Position numbers and translations under genes: made by a program. From Flavobacterium sandaracinum (GTDB lineage: Bacteria; Bacteroidota; Bacteroidia; Flavobacteriales; Flavobacteriaceae), in assembly GCF_004349135.1 (NCBI RefSeq), contig NZ_SMFN01000010.1:62001-126000 (forward strand): a stretch of DNA of 64,000 bases, given 5' to 3'. This document shows positions 58,979 to 62,641 of this stretch, in pieces (position 1 is the first letter of the stretch; the number at the start of each line of letters is the position of its first letter). Below the pieces are notes generated by a model. It worked only from the letters and a program-made list of their open reading frames with translations. It was not told the DNA's origin and did no database searches.

Positions 58979-61900
58979 ATGCAAAGACCTTCATTCTCTA
59001 TATACGACGCATCAGCCGGTTCCGGTAAAACCTATGCGCTTGTCAAAGAATATTTAAAAATTATTCTGGTTGCCAAGAAAAATGATGCCTATCGCAACAT
59101 TCTTGCTATTACGTTTACCAACAAAGCGGTACACGAAATGAAAAGCCGAATCGTAGGCAGTCTCTCTGAATTTGCCAAGGATGAACCAAGTGCAAAAGCA
59201 CAGGACTTAATGCAGGATTTATCTATTGATACGGAATTATCCATCATTCAAATCAAAACCAAATCACAGCAAATCATCAAGCATATTATTCATAATTATG
59301 CGGCTTTCGATATTTCGACCATTGATAAGTTTACGCATAAAGTGATTCGGGCGTTTGCTCATGATTTAGGTTTGCCTATGACTTTTGAAGTTACTTTGGA
59401 TACTGAAAATTTGTTGGTAGAAGCCGTTGATGCCATAATCGCTCAAGCCGGAGAAGATGAAACATTGACAAAGTTATTGATTGATTTCACGATGGAAAAA
59501 ACCGATGATGACAAATCATGGGATATTTCACGGGAAATTCTTGATACCGGTCGTTTGGTTTTAAACGAAAATAACCGAAACGAAATTACCCATTTCCATG
59601 ACAAGTCAATAGCTGATTTTGTAGCAATTAAAGCAAAATTGAACGAGGCCTGTAAAGTTTTGGAGAAAGAAAGTGTAGCCTTTGCAGAGGAAGCCCTTTT
59701 GCTAATAGAAAAAAACGGAATTGATAATAAGTCATTTTCTGGAGCATATTTCCCAAAACATTTGATCAGCATTCAAGAAGGTAAGTTCAATCCAAAAAAC
59801 AAAACGTATCACGAATACGATGATATAAAAATCAATAAAACTGCAAAAGATCGAGCGATTATAGAAAATATAATTCCCGAATTTTTGCAAATTCTATCGA
59901 ACGTTTATACGACTTTTGAAAAGATAAATTTTTATAAAGCGTTCCTGAAAAACATTACGCCTTTGTCATTGTTAAATACGGTGAGTAATGAATTAGCCAA
60001 AATTCAAGAAGAACAAAATGTACTTTCGATATCCGAATTTAATGCCATTATCCATCGTGAAATTCAAAACCAACCGGCTCCTTTTATATACGAACGATTG
60101 GGCGAGCGCTACCGCCATTTTTTTATTGACGAATTTCAGGATACTTCTGAAATGCAATGGCAGAACCTGATTCCGCTAATTGATAATGCGCTTTCGGGTC
60201 AGGATGATTTTGGTGTAAAGGGAACTTTGATGATTGTGGGTGATCCAAAACAATCCATTTACAGATGGCGTGGCGGTAAAGCAGAACAGTTTATTGAATT
60301 AAGTAAAGACCAAAATCCATTCAACAATCCCGATAAAAGACTTGAACATTTAGATAAAAATTACCGCTCTTATTCACAAATAATCGAATTTAATAATGAT
60401 TTTTTCAAATTGTTATCGAATGAATTCGAACATTTGGATTATAAAGATTTGTATGAAAATCACAGCCATCAAAAAACGAATGACAAAACGGGTGGCTACG
60501 TAAATATTTCTTTTATTCCAAAAGTAGAAACTTCAGAAGATCCTGATAGTTCGGGAGAAGAAATGTTAGATAAAACGGACTTGTATGTTTTGGCAACCTT
60601 AAACACCATCCAAAAAACATTAAAACAGGGTTTTCAATACAAAGACATCGTTATTTTGACCAGAAAACGAAGTCAGGGAATTGCGATTGCTAATTATTTG
60701 ACGGAGGAAGGAATTCCACTTTTGTCATCGGAAACCTTGATGATTCAAAATGCCACTGAAGTTAGATTGATTATTCATTTATTAAAATACCTGAAAAACA
60801 GTTCTGATTTGGAATCGAAAGCCAATTTTCTTCAATATTTAGCTCAAAACAGTCAGGATGAATTACCCGTTCATGATTTTATTGCCAAAGGAATGTCGTT
60901 GTTTCAAGAAACAGATTTTGAAAACTGGTTGGTGAGTTTCAATGTTGAATTATCCTTTCAAAACATTCGAAAAAAATCATTGTATGAGGCGGTGGAAACT
61001 ATAGTAGCAAAGTTCCTCCCCCCGACCCCCTCCGAAGGAGGGGGAGTCAAAGCGGTAAACGCTGTGGATAAAAATCGGCTTACTGAATTAAATAAATTAG
61101 GATACATGACAGGAGGGATTTATTCTCATCTTTCAATTGAAAAAGCAAAAGAGAAGAGAAAAGAGCCAACGCCTGCTGAGAAAGTTCTTTGGATGGAGCT
61201 TAAATCTAAATCATTAGAAGATCATAAATTCAGGCAGCAACATTTGATTAATGATTTTATAGTTGACTTTGTTTGCTTGTCCAAAAAACTGGTTGTTGAA
61301 GTGGATGGAGATTATCATTTTTCGGAAGAGCAAACTCAGTTAGATAATAATAGAACAATTACTCTAAATAAATTAGGCTTTAAAGTAATCCGATTTACTA
61401 ATGAGCAAGTTGTAAAGAGCATTTCAGAAGTTTTGAAAAAGATAAAAAAGGAGTTAGTGAGTCAAGAAATTCTTCTAGATTCTATTGGTCCAGTTTCCGC
61501 TCCCTCCCCTTCGGGGAGGGTTGGGGAGGGGAATGCTTACGTCCAATACTTCTTAGACATTGTTCTAGAACGAGATATTCGTAACCAGGCAGGAATTTCA
61601 GATTTCTTGAATTTCTGGGATAAAAATGCGGAGAAATTTAGTATTCCGTCTCCGGAAGGAACTAATGCCGTTCGGATTATGACGATTCATAAATCGAAAG
61701 GATTGGAATTTCCAGTCGTGATTTTTCCTTTTGCTGAGGAAGATTACAACAGAAAGCCAAAAGACAAATTATGGCTAAATGCTGAGGAACAGGATTTTGG
61801 TTTGCCAAAGGTTTTAATTGATAATAGCAGTGCGGTAGAGGGTTTTGGCGGAGAAGCTGCTGCCGTTTACAATCAAAAGAAACAGGAAGAATTGTTGGAT

Positions 61901-62641
61901 AATATTAATGTTTTATATGTTGCTTTAACCCGAGCCGAAGAGCAATTGTATGTGATTTCGAATATGAATTTGTCTAGTAAAGGTGAAATTCCAAAAAACA
62001 ATATGTGTTCGTTTTTTATTAATTATGTAGCTAGTAAAGGGATGTGGAATGAAAATAAATTTGAATATGAATTTGGAAATGCAACTAAATTATCTTCAGC
62101 AAAACAACACGTCGATACTTCAAAAACGATTCCTTTAGTTTCAGAAATTTTGAATCCAAAGAATATAAAAATAGCGCAACGCGAAGCTTTAATGTGGGGA
62201 ACGCATCAGCAGGAAGCAATTGAGTACGGAAATATAATTCATGAAATTTTATCTTTTGTAAAAACTAAAAATGATGTTGATTTGGCAATTACAAAATCTA
62301 TTGAAGACGGATTGATAACTTTTGCTCAAAAAGAAATAGTTTTTAATACAATTCAGGAAATTGTCAATCACAGTGAATTAGAAATTTGTTTTGCTGAAGG
62401 AAATGAAGTTTTAAATGAGCAAACAATCATTCAAAAAGAAGGTAAAACCATTAAGCCGGATCGAATGGTTTTAACGAAAAACAAAGAAGTTTTGTTGTTG
62501 GATTATAAAACAGGAATACATAATGTCAAATACCAACAGCAATTAGAAAATTATCAAACAGCAATTGAATTAATGGGTTATAAAGTGATAAAAAAAGCAC
62601 TTATTTACATCGGAAAAGAAATCGATGTAGTAAATTTGTAG
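58979..62641 (+). CDS. RecB/AddA-like UvrD helicase-nuclease with an inserted DUF559 domain
   Basis: The 1220-residue protein is a superfamily 1 helicase with a RecB-type nuclease: Walker A ASAGSGKT (11-18), AITFTNKAVHEMKSR, motif II IDEFQDTSE with Asp384/Glu385, GDPKQSIYRWRGG, motif V MTIHKSKGLEFPV, motif VI LYVALTRAEEQLY, and C-terminal YGNIIHEIL then Asp1161 and DYK at 1175-1177. It probably processes DNA ends for recombination; its AddB-like partner is not in view. Residues about 679-852 are a foreign insertion holding a DUF559 domain, between the helicase's AVETIVAKF and AYVQYFLDIV. Without it the length would be about 1046, which I would expect for the family. Confidence 0.92.
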   Translation: MQRPSFSIYDASAGSGKTYALVKEYLKIILVAKKNDAYRNILAITFTNKAVHEMKSRIVGSLSEFAKDEPSAKAQDLMQDLSIDTELSIIQIKTKSQQIIKHIIHNYAAFDISTIDKFTHKVIRAFAHDLGLPMTFEVTLDTENLLVEAVDAIIAQAGEDETLTKLLIDFTMEKTDDDKSWDISREILDTGRLVLNENNRNEITHFHDKSIADFVAIKAKLNEACKVLEKESVAFAEEALLLIEKNGIDNKSFSGAYFPKHLISIQEGKFNPKNKTYHEYDDIKINKTAKDRAIIENIIPEFLQILSNVYTTFEKINFYKAFLKNITPLSLLNTVSNELAKIQEEQNVLSISEFNAIIHREIQNQPAPFIYERLGERYRHFFIDEFQDTSEMQWQNLIPLIDNALSGQDDFGVKGTLMIVGDPKQSIYRWRGGKAEQFIELSKDQNPFNNPDKRLEHLDKNYRSYSQIIEFNNDFFKLLSNEFEHLDYKDLYENHSHQKTNDKTGGYVNISFIPKVETSEDPDSSGEEMLDKTDLYVLATLNTIQKTLKQGFQYKDIVILTRKRSQGIAIANYLTEEGIPLLSSETLMIQNATEVRLIIHLLKYLKNSSDLESKANFLQYLAQNSQDELPVHDFIAKGMSLFQETDFENWLVSFNVELSFQNIRKKSLYEAVETIVAKFLPPTPSEGGGVKAVNAVDKNRLTELNKLGYMTGGIYSHLSIEKAKEKRKEPTPAEKVLWMELKSKSLEDHKFRQQHLINDFIVDFVCLSKKLVVEVDGDYHFSEEQTQLDNNRTITLNKLGFKVIRFTNEQVVKSISEVLKKIKKELVSQEILLDSIGPVSAPSPSGRVGEGNAYVQYFLDIVLERDIRNQAGISDFLNFWDKNAEKFSIPSPEGTNAVRIMTIHKSKGLEFPVVIFPFAEEDYNRKPKDKLWLNAEEQDFGLPKVLIDNSSAVEGFGGEAAAVYNQKKQEELLDNINVLYVALTRAEEQLYVISNMNLSSKGEIPKNNMCSFFINYVASKGMWNENKFEYEFGNATKLSSAKQHVDTSKTIPLVSEILNPKNIKIAQREALMWGTHQQEAIEYGNIIHEILSFVKTKNDVDLAITKSIEDGLITFAQKEIVFNTIQEIVNHSELEICFAEGNEVLNEQTIIQKEGKTIKPDRMVLTKNKEVLLLDYKTGIHNVKYQQQLENYQTAIELMGYKVIKKALIYIGKEIDVVNL
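61013..61533 (+). mobile_element. In-frame DUF559 element with hairpin terminal inverted repeats
   Basis: The left end 61013-61045 and the right end 61501-61533 are 33-base imperfect inverted repeats (26 of 33 identical when one is reversed). Each contains a hairpin with a three-base GAA or TTC loop. Between them the host frame stays open and encodes a DUF559 domain with PTPAEKVLW, KFRQQH, Asp763 in FIVDFV and Glu774/Asp776 in VVEVDGDYH, followed by NKLGFKVIRFTNEQV. An internal ATG at 61106 could start a free copy. The 521 bases are not a multiple of three, so the true borders differ slightly from these coordinates. Confidence 0.75.
61106..61466 (+). other. DUF559 (PD-(D/E)xK-like) endonuclease domain inside the helicase ORF
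   Basis: Residues about 710-830 of the helicase protein match the DUF559 pattern found in free-standing small proteins: a helix with EKAKEKRKEPTPAEKVLW, the strand HKFRQQHLINDFIVDFVC, the strand KKLVVEVDGDYH and the final LGFKVIRFTNEQVVKSI. The acidic and polar residues of the fold are intact, so the domain may be active. It may be made only as part of the helicase or also from the internal ATG. Confidence 0.75.

Follow-up and report, generated by a model that had tools for sequence, protein, structure and literature searches.

The window, the whole stretch of 64,000 nucleotides analyzed here from contig NZ_SMFN01000010.1 of Flavobacterium sandaracinum, carries on its plus strand (58979..62641) a RecB/AddA-like helicase gene of the UvrD family that, including an inserted element, spans 1220 codons without a stop anywhere in the reading frame. 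The assignment is based on the open reading frame and on Pfam and NCBIfam searches: the Pfam UvrD-helicase domain lies on the N-terminal side of the insert, UvrD_C spans both of its sides, and the best NCBIfam matches of the 1220-residue frame are RecB-like helicases, all under their cut-offs. The helicase is a single match in its own genome and the gene is present in 194 out of 199 genomes of the genus. Across 36 orthologous segments, some with the insert and some without, the sequences DEFQDTS, GDPKQSIYRWRGG, TIHKSKGLEFPVV, and VLYVALTRAEEQL, which we take to be helicase motifs, reach 90% conservation or more, up to invariance. In the initial annotation, the helicase motifs on either side of the insert had been described as looking intact. 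Directly after the insertion site, a comparison of orthologues identifies a conserved host block (61532..61573, plus strand, NAYVQYFLDIVLER).

The inserted element occupies positions 61013..61533 (plus strand, in frame with the host), as defined by the outer edges of its inverted arms in an arm alignment and by unoccupied alleles; its outermost bases, TTC and AA, are shared with host codons. Arm alignment and shuffling place the left terminal inverted arm at 61013..61046 (translated FLPPTPSEGGG) and the right one at 61500..61533 (translated (A)PSPSGRVGEG), both on the plus strand. The arms contain 19-nt palindromes at 61026-61044 and 61502-61520 (CCCCCTCCGAAGGAGGGGG and CCCTCCCCTTCGGGGAGGG, respectively). 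Inverted ends had been claimed initially and were confirmed, but not as the 33-base repeats described: the arms are 34 nt each and imperfect, with 79% complementarity. The arm pair of the window exceeds 20 out of 20 dinucleotide shuffles, as do the arms of 73 out of 110 in-frame copies tested; in the other 37, chiefly copies within RecG, the arms did not score above all 20 shuffles. Terminal inverted repeats as in a DNA transposon or MITE are thus found in the family, with 42 out of 42 positions paired in one copy (L127). The arms of the window are free of stops in all six frames, which is true for 67 of the 3,763 34-nt windows of the sequence, and the whole insert including its GC-rich ends is open in the host frame, as had been noted from the uninterrupted 1220-codon frame. 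The first residue of the insert is P, the last is G, and the next host residue is N. The left arm (61013-61046) also gave a weak Rfam match to the whalefall-1 RNA (15.8 bits against a gathering score of 37), likely because both are GC-rich hairpins.

Between the arms lies a DUF559 nuclease domain (61139..61456, plus strand; residues 721-826), identified by Pfam, alignment, and fold, with conserved E, D-F, E-x-D-G, and H positions. The Pfam match (PF04480) covers residues 721-826 with an E value of 1.9e-31 and 108.6 bits against a gathering score of 20.6. The domain is full-length, as first proposed, and eleven columns are invariant among 59 copies, including D55, E66, D68, and D81. Across five sites, each represented by 3 to 11 pairs that are not independent, the median dN/dS of the element ranges from 0.09 to 0.18, indicating that the DUF559 domain is under purifying selection. 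A profile search of the PDB returned first 3hrl, presumably a DUF559 protein, and then 3r3p (I-Bth0305I; E = 4e-7). An AlphaFold model of the domain (pLDDT 84) gave the same order in Foldseek, with 3hrl first and the homing endonuclease I-Bth0305I (3r3p, catalytic domain, E = 3e-5) second; Vsr was a much weaker match (E = 0.018), ranked below some mitoribosomal chains. A model of the helicase segment together with the insert reached a pLDDT of 53.7 and was not used.

Occupancy of the helicase site (site S2) was read at 30 loci as the number of nucleotides between two host anchors. Eight loci are occupied, with 546-714 nt between the anchors (624 nt in the window), and 22 are unoccupied, comprising eight of 126 nt, twelve of 129-201 nt, and two without an in-frame N-terminal anchor. 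The window exceeds the 126-nt alleles by 498 nt, equal to 166 codons, and comparison with the allele of genome G010 indicates that the insert replaces approximately five linker codons (KFL-NPKVS-NAYVQ) rather than merely splitting the linker. At least 11 helicase frames with DUF559 were found in the 199 genomes searched, compared with 194 genomes that have the gene, so that most relatives are without the domain. Both anchors lie in one stop-free frame at 28 of the 30 loci, whether occupied, stub, or empty. The two unanchored loci (L097 in G150 and L098 in G112) are short, broken helicase frames with remnants of palindromic ends; they could have arisen by decay, by slippage in runs of C or G, or through errors in sequencing. 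One 201-nt allele (L103, G056) has lost the nuclease and kept both inverted ends; in L103 and L098 the insertion is shortened or broken, yet both of its ends survive at this helicase position, and two further loci (L080 in G045, L076 in G070) contain shorter in-frame insertions that resemble decayed ends. The helicase insert is also found in named isolates, including F. psychrolimnae, F. caseinilyticum, F. petrolei, F. glaciei, F. xueshanense, and further species (a number of which seem identical to genomes already in the genus set), and an artifact of annotation or assembly was rejected for this reason. A Flavobacterium-like helicase with the insert (L184) was found in a bin titled Rhizobium sp., which is probably misnamed.

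The genome of F. sandaracinum contains two DUF559 matches, both in long frames: the one in the helicase and a second one in frame within metH (L001, 856-3327, contig C3), next to an ORF that we take to be a methylenetetrahydrofolate reductase. Among the best 75 DUF559 matches in the 199 genomes of the genus, 65 lie in frames of at least 317 residues and ten in frames of at most 164 residues. The host frames fetched from the genus clustered into MetH (25), LeuRS (20), helicase (11), RecG (9), and one other. Two DUF559 copies per frame occur in MetH (G131 and G138) and in LeuRS (G016); at two loci (L035, L036) a single MetH ORF carries DUF559 insertions at two sites. Within the phylum, DUF559 is present in 222 out of 395 genomes, and further in-frame hosts include HsdR, HemF, HisF, HemD, methylmalonyl-CoA mutase, an M23 peptidase, an Eco57I-type methylase, and a GATase_5 (PurL/PurQ-type) amidotransferase. 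In four of these hosts (HisF, HemF, HemD, and the amidotransferase), DUF559 is close to one terminus of the protein, N or C. One HsdR frame (L137, 2375-6391) contains a GIY-YIG nuclease domain (residues 251-316) in addition to DUF559.

Empty alleles were also found in two of the other host genes. At MetH site S4, 28 out of 30 loci have exactly 75 nt and the two occupied ones 501 nt; at MetH site S0, 28 out of 29 readable loci are unoccupied (27 of 75 nt and one of 72 nt) and one is occupied; and at LeuRS site S1, four out of 30 loci are occupied and the remaining 26 measure 72-165 nt. The inserts are located just upstream of conserved blocks, namely GKILMATVKGD (S0), FTTRPDTIFG (S1), NAYVQYFLDIV (S2), and MTATPIPRTL (S3, in RecG). 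A search of a genome collection with the domain of the window returned 18 loci, all in frame, 12 in helicases and six in LeuRS (from Polaribacter, Winogradskyella, and a genome labeled Algicola). Collections of plasmids and phages yielded distant relatives only (39 and 2 records, all below 60% identity). Several free-standing DUF559 loci (L165-L169, L108, L120) are bracketed by paired GC-rich palindromes as judged by eye, and in two of them (L165, L169) the palindrome tails appear to point inward, not outward.

A tree of 140 domains was built from 142 instances after removal of two spurious domain calls with low scores in the window ORF; the duplicates L002 (identical to the window), L003, L008, and L016 were omitted. 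With 14 labels for sites, free copies, and other hosts, the tree requires 23 label changes (minimum 13), compared with a mean of 95.8 for shuffled labels, and none of 200 shuffles was as low. All 11 copies from the helicase fall on a single branch (100/99), and MetH S0 copies from three other bacterial families group with those of Flavobacterium. Two copies located at MetH S0 (L006, L007) are S4-type elements, a switch between two sites within metH. The gene-invading lifestyle proposed in the initial annotation is upheld by these site-specific lineages together with the relatives in unrelated genes. A further tree of 209 rows, to which 60 free and nine in-frame copies were added (quick method, midpoint root, 111 columns, long-frame copies fetched first), places the S0-S4 copies in a clade of 99 sampled rows, 96 of them in frame and three free. 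The 88 free copies in this tree are a sample of the matches listed and some long-frame matches were left out (e.g., G101:C81, G046:C94). In-frame copies exist outside the 99-row clade too, so the in-frame habit either arose more than once or is older.

The best reading of these data, and a probable one, is that the insert belongs to a family of non-splicing, protein-resident mobile elements of the homing type. The element combines a Vsr-like DUF559 nuclease with a palindromic, GC-rich end on either side, and would settle in a widespread gene, in a variable linker that adjoins a conserved block. Judging from the reading frame, the stop-free ends encode linkers rich in Pro, Ser, and Gly, and the nuclease would be translated as an extra domain; with ends that are stop-free and code for linkers, the host gene stays a single reading frame. 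For spread, we infer nuclease-driven cleavage and homing: the nuclease may cut or nick an unoccupied allele close to the conserved block, after which repair of the break may use an occupied copy brought by gene transfer. Patchy occupancy and discordant histories of element and host are indirect signs of such copying. As indicated by the tree, a lineage would occasionally jump to a new site and found a new site-specific lineage there. Decay, as seen at the helicase site, would proceed by internal deletion that leaves in-frame stubs. A broader proposal, which we consider evenly poised between right and wrong, is that such splicing-free homing elements occur phylum-wide, with the nuclease as a permanent domain of essential proteins (LeuRS, MetH, and RecG among them), with stop-free palindromic ends that act both as ends of mobile DNA and as flexible linkers, and with each lineage dedicated to one conserved site in a gene; the family would then form a counterpart, equipped with a nuclease gene, to the in-frame palindromic elements.

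A tentative alternative is that the palindromic ends are substrates of a transposase, either the DUF559 protein or another enzyme, and that insertion is quasi-random, such that only in-frame linker copies survive in important genes. The inverted ends and the many different hosts agree with this possibility, as do the free copies bracketed by paired palindromes. It also finds agreement in the F. sandaracinum genome, where 16 matches to the end pattern were found (two of them the arms of the window itself) compared with one control match; the repeats are hence not confined to the locus where they were first noticed. Three facing pairs of ends, approximately 105 to 330 nt in length and without DUF559, form short nuclease-less elements in this genome (L311, C1:250015-250121; L315, C9:45021-45352; L326, C12:236518-236622). 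The C9 element overlaps the start of a frame that we take to be ABC-transporter-like, and a single end (L320) overlaps the start of another, presumably exonuclease-like frame. Transposition of this kind is opposed by the repeated occupation of identical sites in different species and families and by the site-specific lineages, which exceed the expectation for random insertion. Eight copies inspected by eye showed no recognizable target duplication, which would also speak against it; the insert replaces linker codons. The alternative partly overlaps the homing-type reading, since new sites must arise somehow, and the probabilities that we attach to the different explanations do not sum to one.

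Alternatively, the domain could be an ancient in-frame insertion, inherited vertically, lost many times, and now immobile, which we consider improbable. Such a history is compatible with the many unoccupied sites of odd, relic-like length and with the distribution on the helicase host tree (36 rows, without L097 and L098, which lack the N-terminal anchor; “clean” alleles were defined as exactly 42 codons and “relic” alleles as any other unoccupied length). Occupancy on this tree is patchy and slightly clustered, with nine changes compared with a mean of 12.1 after shuffling (29 out of 500 shuffles as low). Furthermore, element and host divergence are concordant in all four host-nearest pairs at S2, the site occupied in the window itself, so that vertical inheritance with repeated loss fits this site as well. 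Across sites, however, nine out of 25 disjoint host-nearest pairs are strongly discordant (six with z ≤ -2.5 and three with z ≥ 3.4), and extremes of both signs mean that the histories of element and host conflict in both directions. In the pair L036/L028, for example, the element is the more similar partner (element pS 0.03 compared with 0.22 for the host), and the closely related LeuRS hosts L052 and L041 (host pS 0.24) contain different element lineages (element pS 0.64, z = 5.2). Immobility is also at odds with the site switch inside metH and with long arms that match almost perfectly in two genes of a single genome (G361; L127 with 42/42 and L142 with 41/42 positions paired), which point to recent insertions. 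The element shows the lower divergence in 12 out of the 25 pairs (sign test, P = 1.0), and the notion that elements are generally younger than their hosts is therefore unsupported; an earlier hint in that direction came from pairs chosen by element similarity, a biased choice, and the most extreme of those pairs (L071/L074) involves draft genomes and a locus, L074, that ends at a contig edge. Taken at the level of the family, mobility is well supported.

It is very improbable that the insert is an unrecognized splicing element taken out after expression, as an atypical intein or through bypass at the level of RNA or translation. LeuRS is essential, and the interrupted LeuRS is the only LeuRS match in 21 of the 22 carriers tested (out of 24 carriers at site S1), so that either the fusion works or it is matured by some other route; the remaining carrier (G147) has additional weak pieces. 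This tolerance of the insert by a single-copy LeuRS, which also counts in favor of the homing-type reading, and arms that could pair across the insert speak for splicing. Pfam found no splicing (Hint) domain in the ORF, however, and the insert has neither a Cys/Ser start nor a His-Asn end; its ends are rich in P and G. The best Rfam match to a group I or group II intron scored 19.8 bits on the opposite strand, with 55.2 bits needed, so no intron family came near its threshold. Identification as an intein or intron was rejected on these grounds, in agreement with the initial view that nothing suggests splicing. At the helicase loci, 28 out of 30 keep both anchors in one frame, the exceptions being the short, broken frames of L097 and L098. 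The simplest reading of the sequences is that host and nuclease are made as one fused protein. A separate nuclease protein may also be produced from an internal start: an in-frame ATG lies upstream of the domain in 50 out of 112 copies (4 out of 26 at MetH S0), and ATG, GTG, or TTG does so in 98 out of 112. Least probable of all is a domesticated host domain that adds nuclease activity to the helicase, an idea that draws on the host being a recombination helicase and on the purifying selection on the domain; it was rejected because the same clade occurs in unrelated enzymes. Members of the family lie in MetH, LeuRS, HemF, and HisF, which have no evident use for a nuclease, and most helicase orthologues are without the domain, which is bordered by repeats of a mobile type.

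Splicing is what allows inteins and introns to last in important genes. The nuclease of the homing-type element favored here appears to last as an unspliced domain, at fixed positions in LeuRS, MetH, RecG, and further proteins, throughout a phylum. The element offers a testable answer to the question of how in-frame palindromic repeats move, and it marks natural sites for domain insertion in well-studied enzymes. It also carries a warning for annotation, since a DUF559 match inside an enzyme probably represents a passenger and not a function of the host.

No description of the element was found in the open-access literature, subscription papers being mostly outside the scope of that search, but several known systems share parts of its organization. 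Rickettsia palindromic elements are described as in-frame palindromic repeats of approximately 150 bp in unrelated metabolic genes that encode a short conserved peptide and are translated with the host, with no nuclease named in that description (PMC10969869). Like them, the window element has palindromic arms in frame within a protein gene; it differs in that the full element codes for a nuclease and resides in a different phylum. The ShiLan domain or hidden-HNH insertions of phages are described as in-frame-open insertions in phage methylase genes that are neither intein nor intron, are thought to stay in the protein, and have a patchy, homing-like distribution at conserved sites (PMC11855218). 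The insertions described here are likewise open, in frame, neither intein nor intron, and patchy at conserved sites. In ShiLan, the HNH nuclease is reported to lie in a different frame from its host, and the paper does not use the term “inverted repeat” (PMC11855218). Here, by contrast, a DUF559 nuclease shares the host frame, the insertions are in housekeeping genes of the chromosome, and inverted palindromes form their ends. Short nuclease-less copies with the same type of inverted ends recall MITEs and palindromic repeats, in contrast to which full copies code for a nuclease; a target duplication was not recognized by eye in eight copies. Inteins are similarly in-frame open, patchy, nuclease-bearing insertions in conserved proteins, and the window insert differs from them by lacking a splicing domain and splicing residues. 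A homing endonuclease family of the EDxHD/Vsr type has been described (PMC12350094). The DUF559 domain resembles I-Bth0305I (3r3p) of this type by both profile and fold; unlike the mobile intron protein in PDB entry 3r3p, it is not associated with any intron or intein found at this locus. Overall, the element is judged to work like a homing element and would be a putative member of that class.
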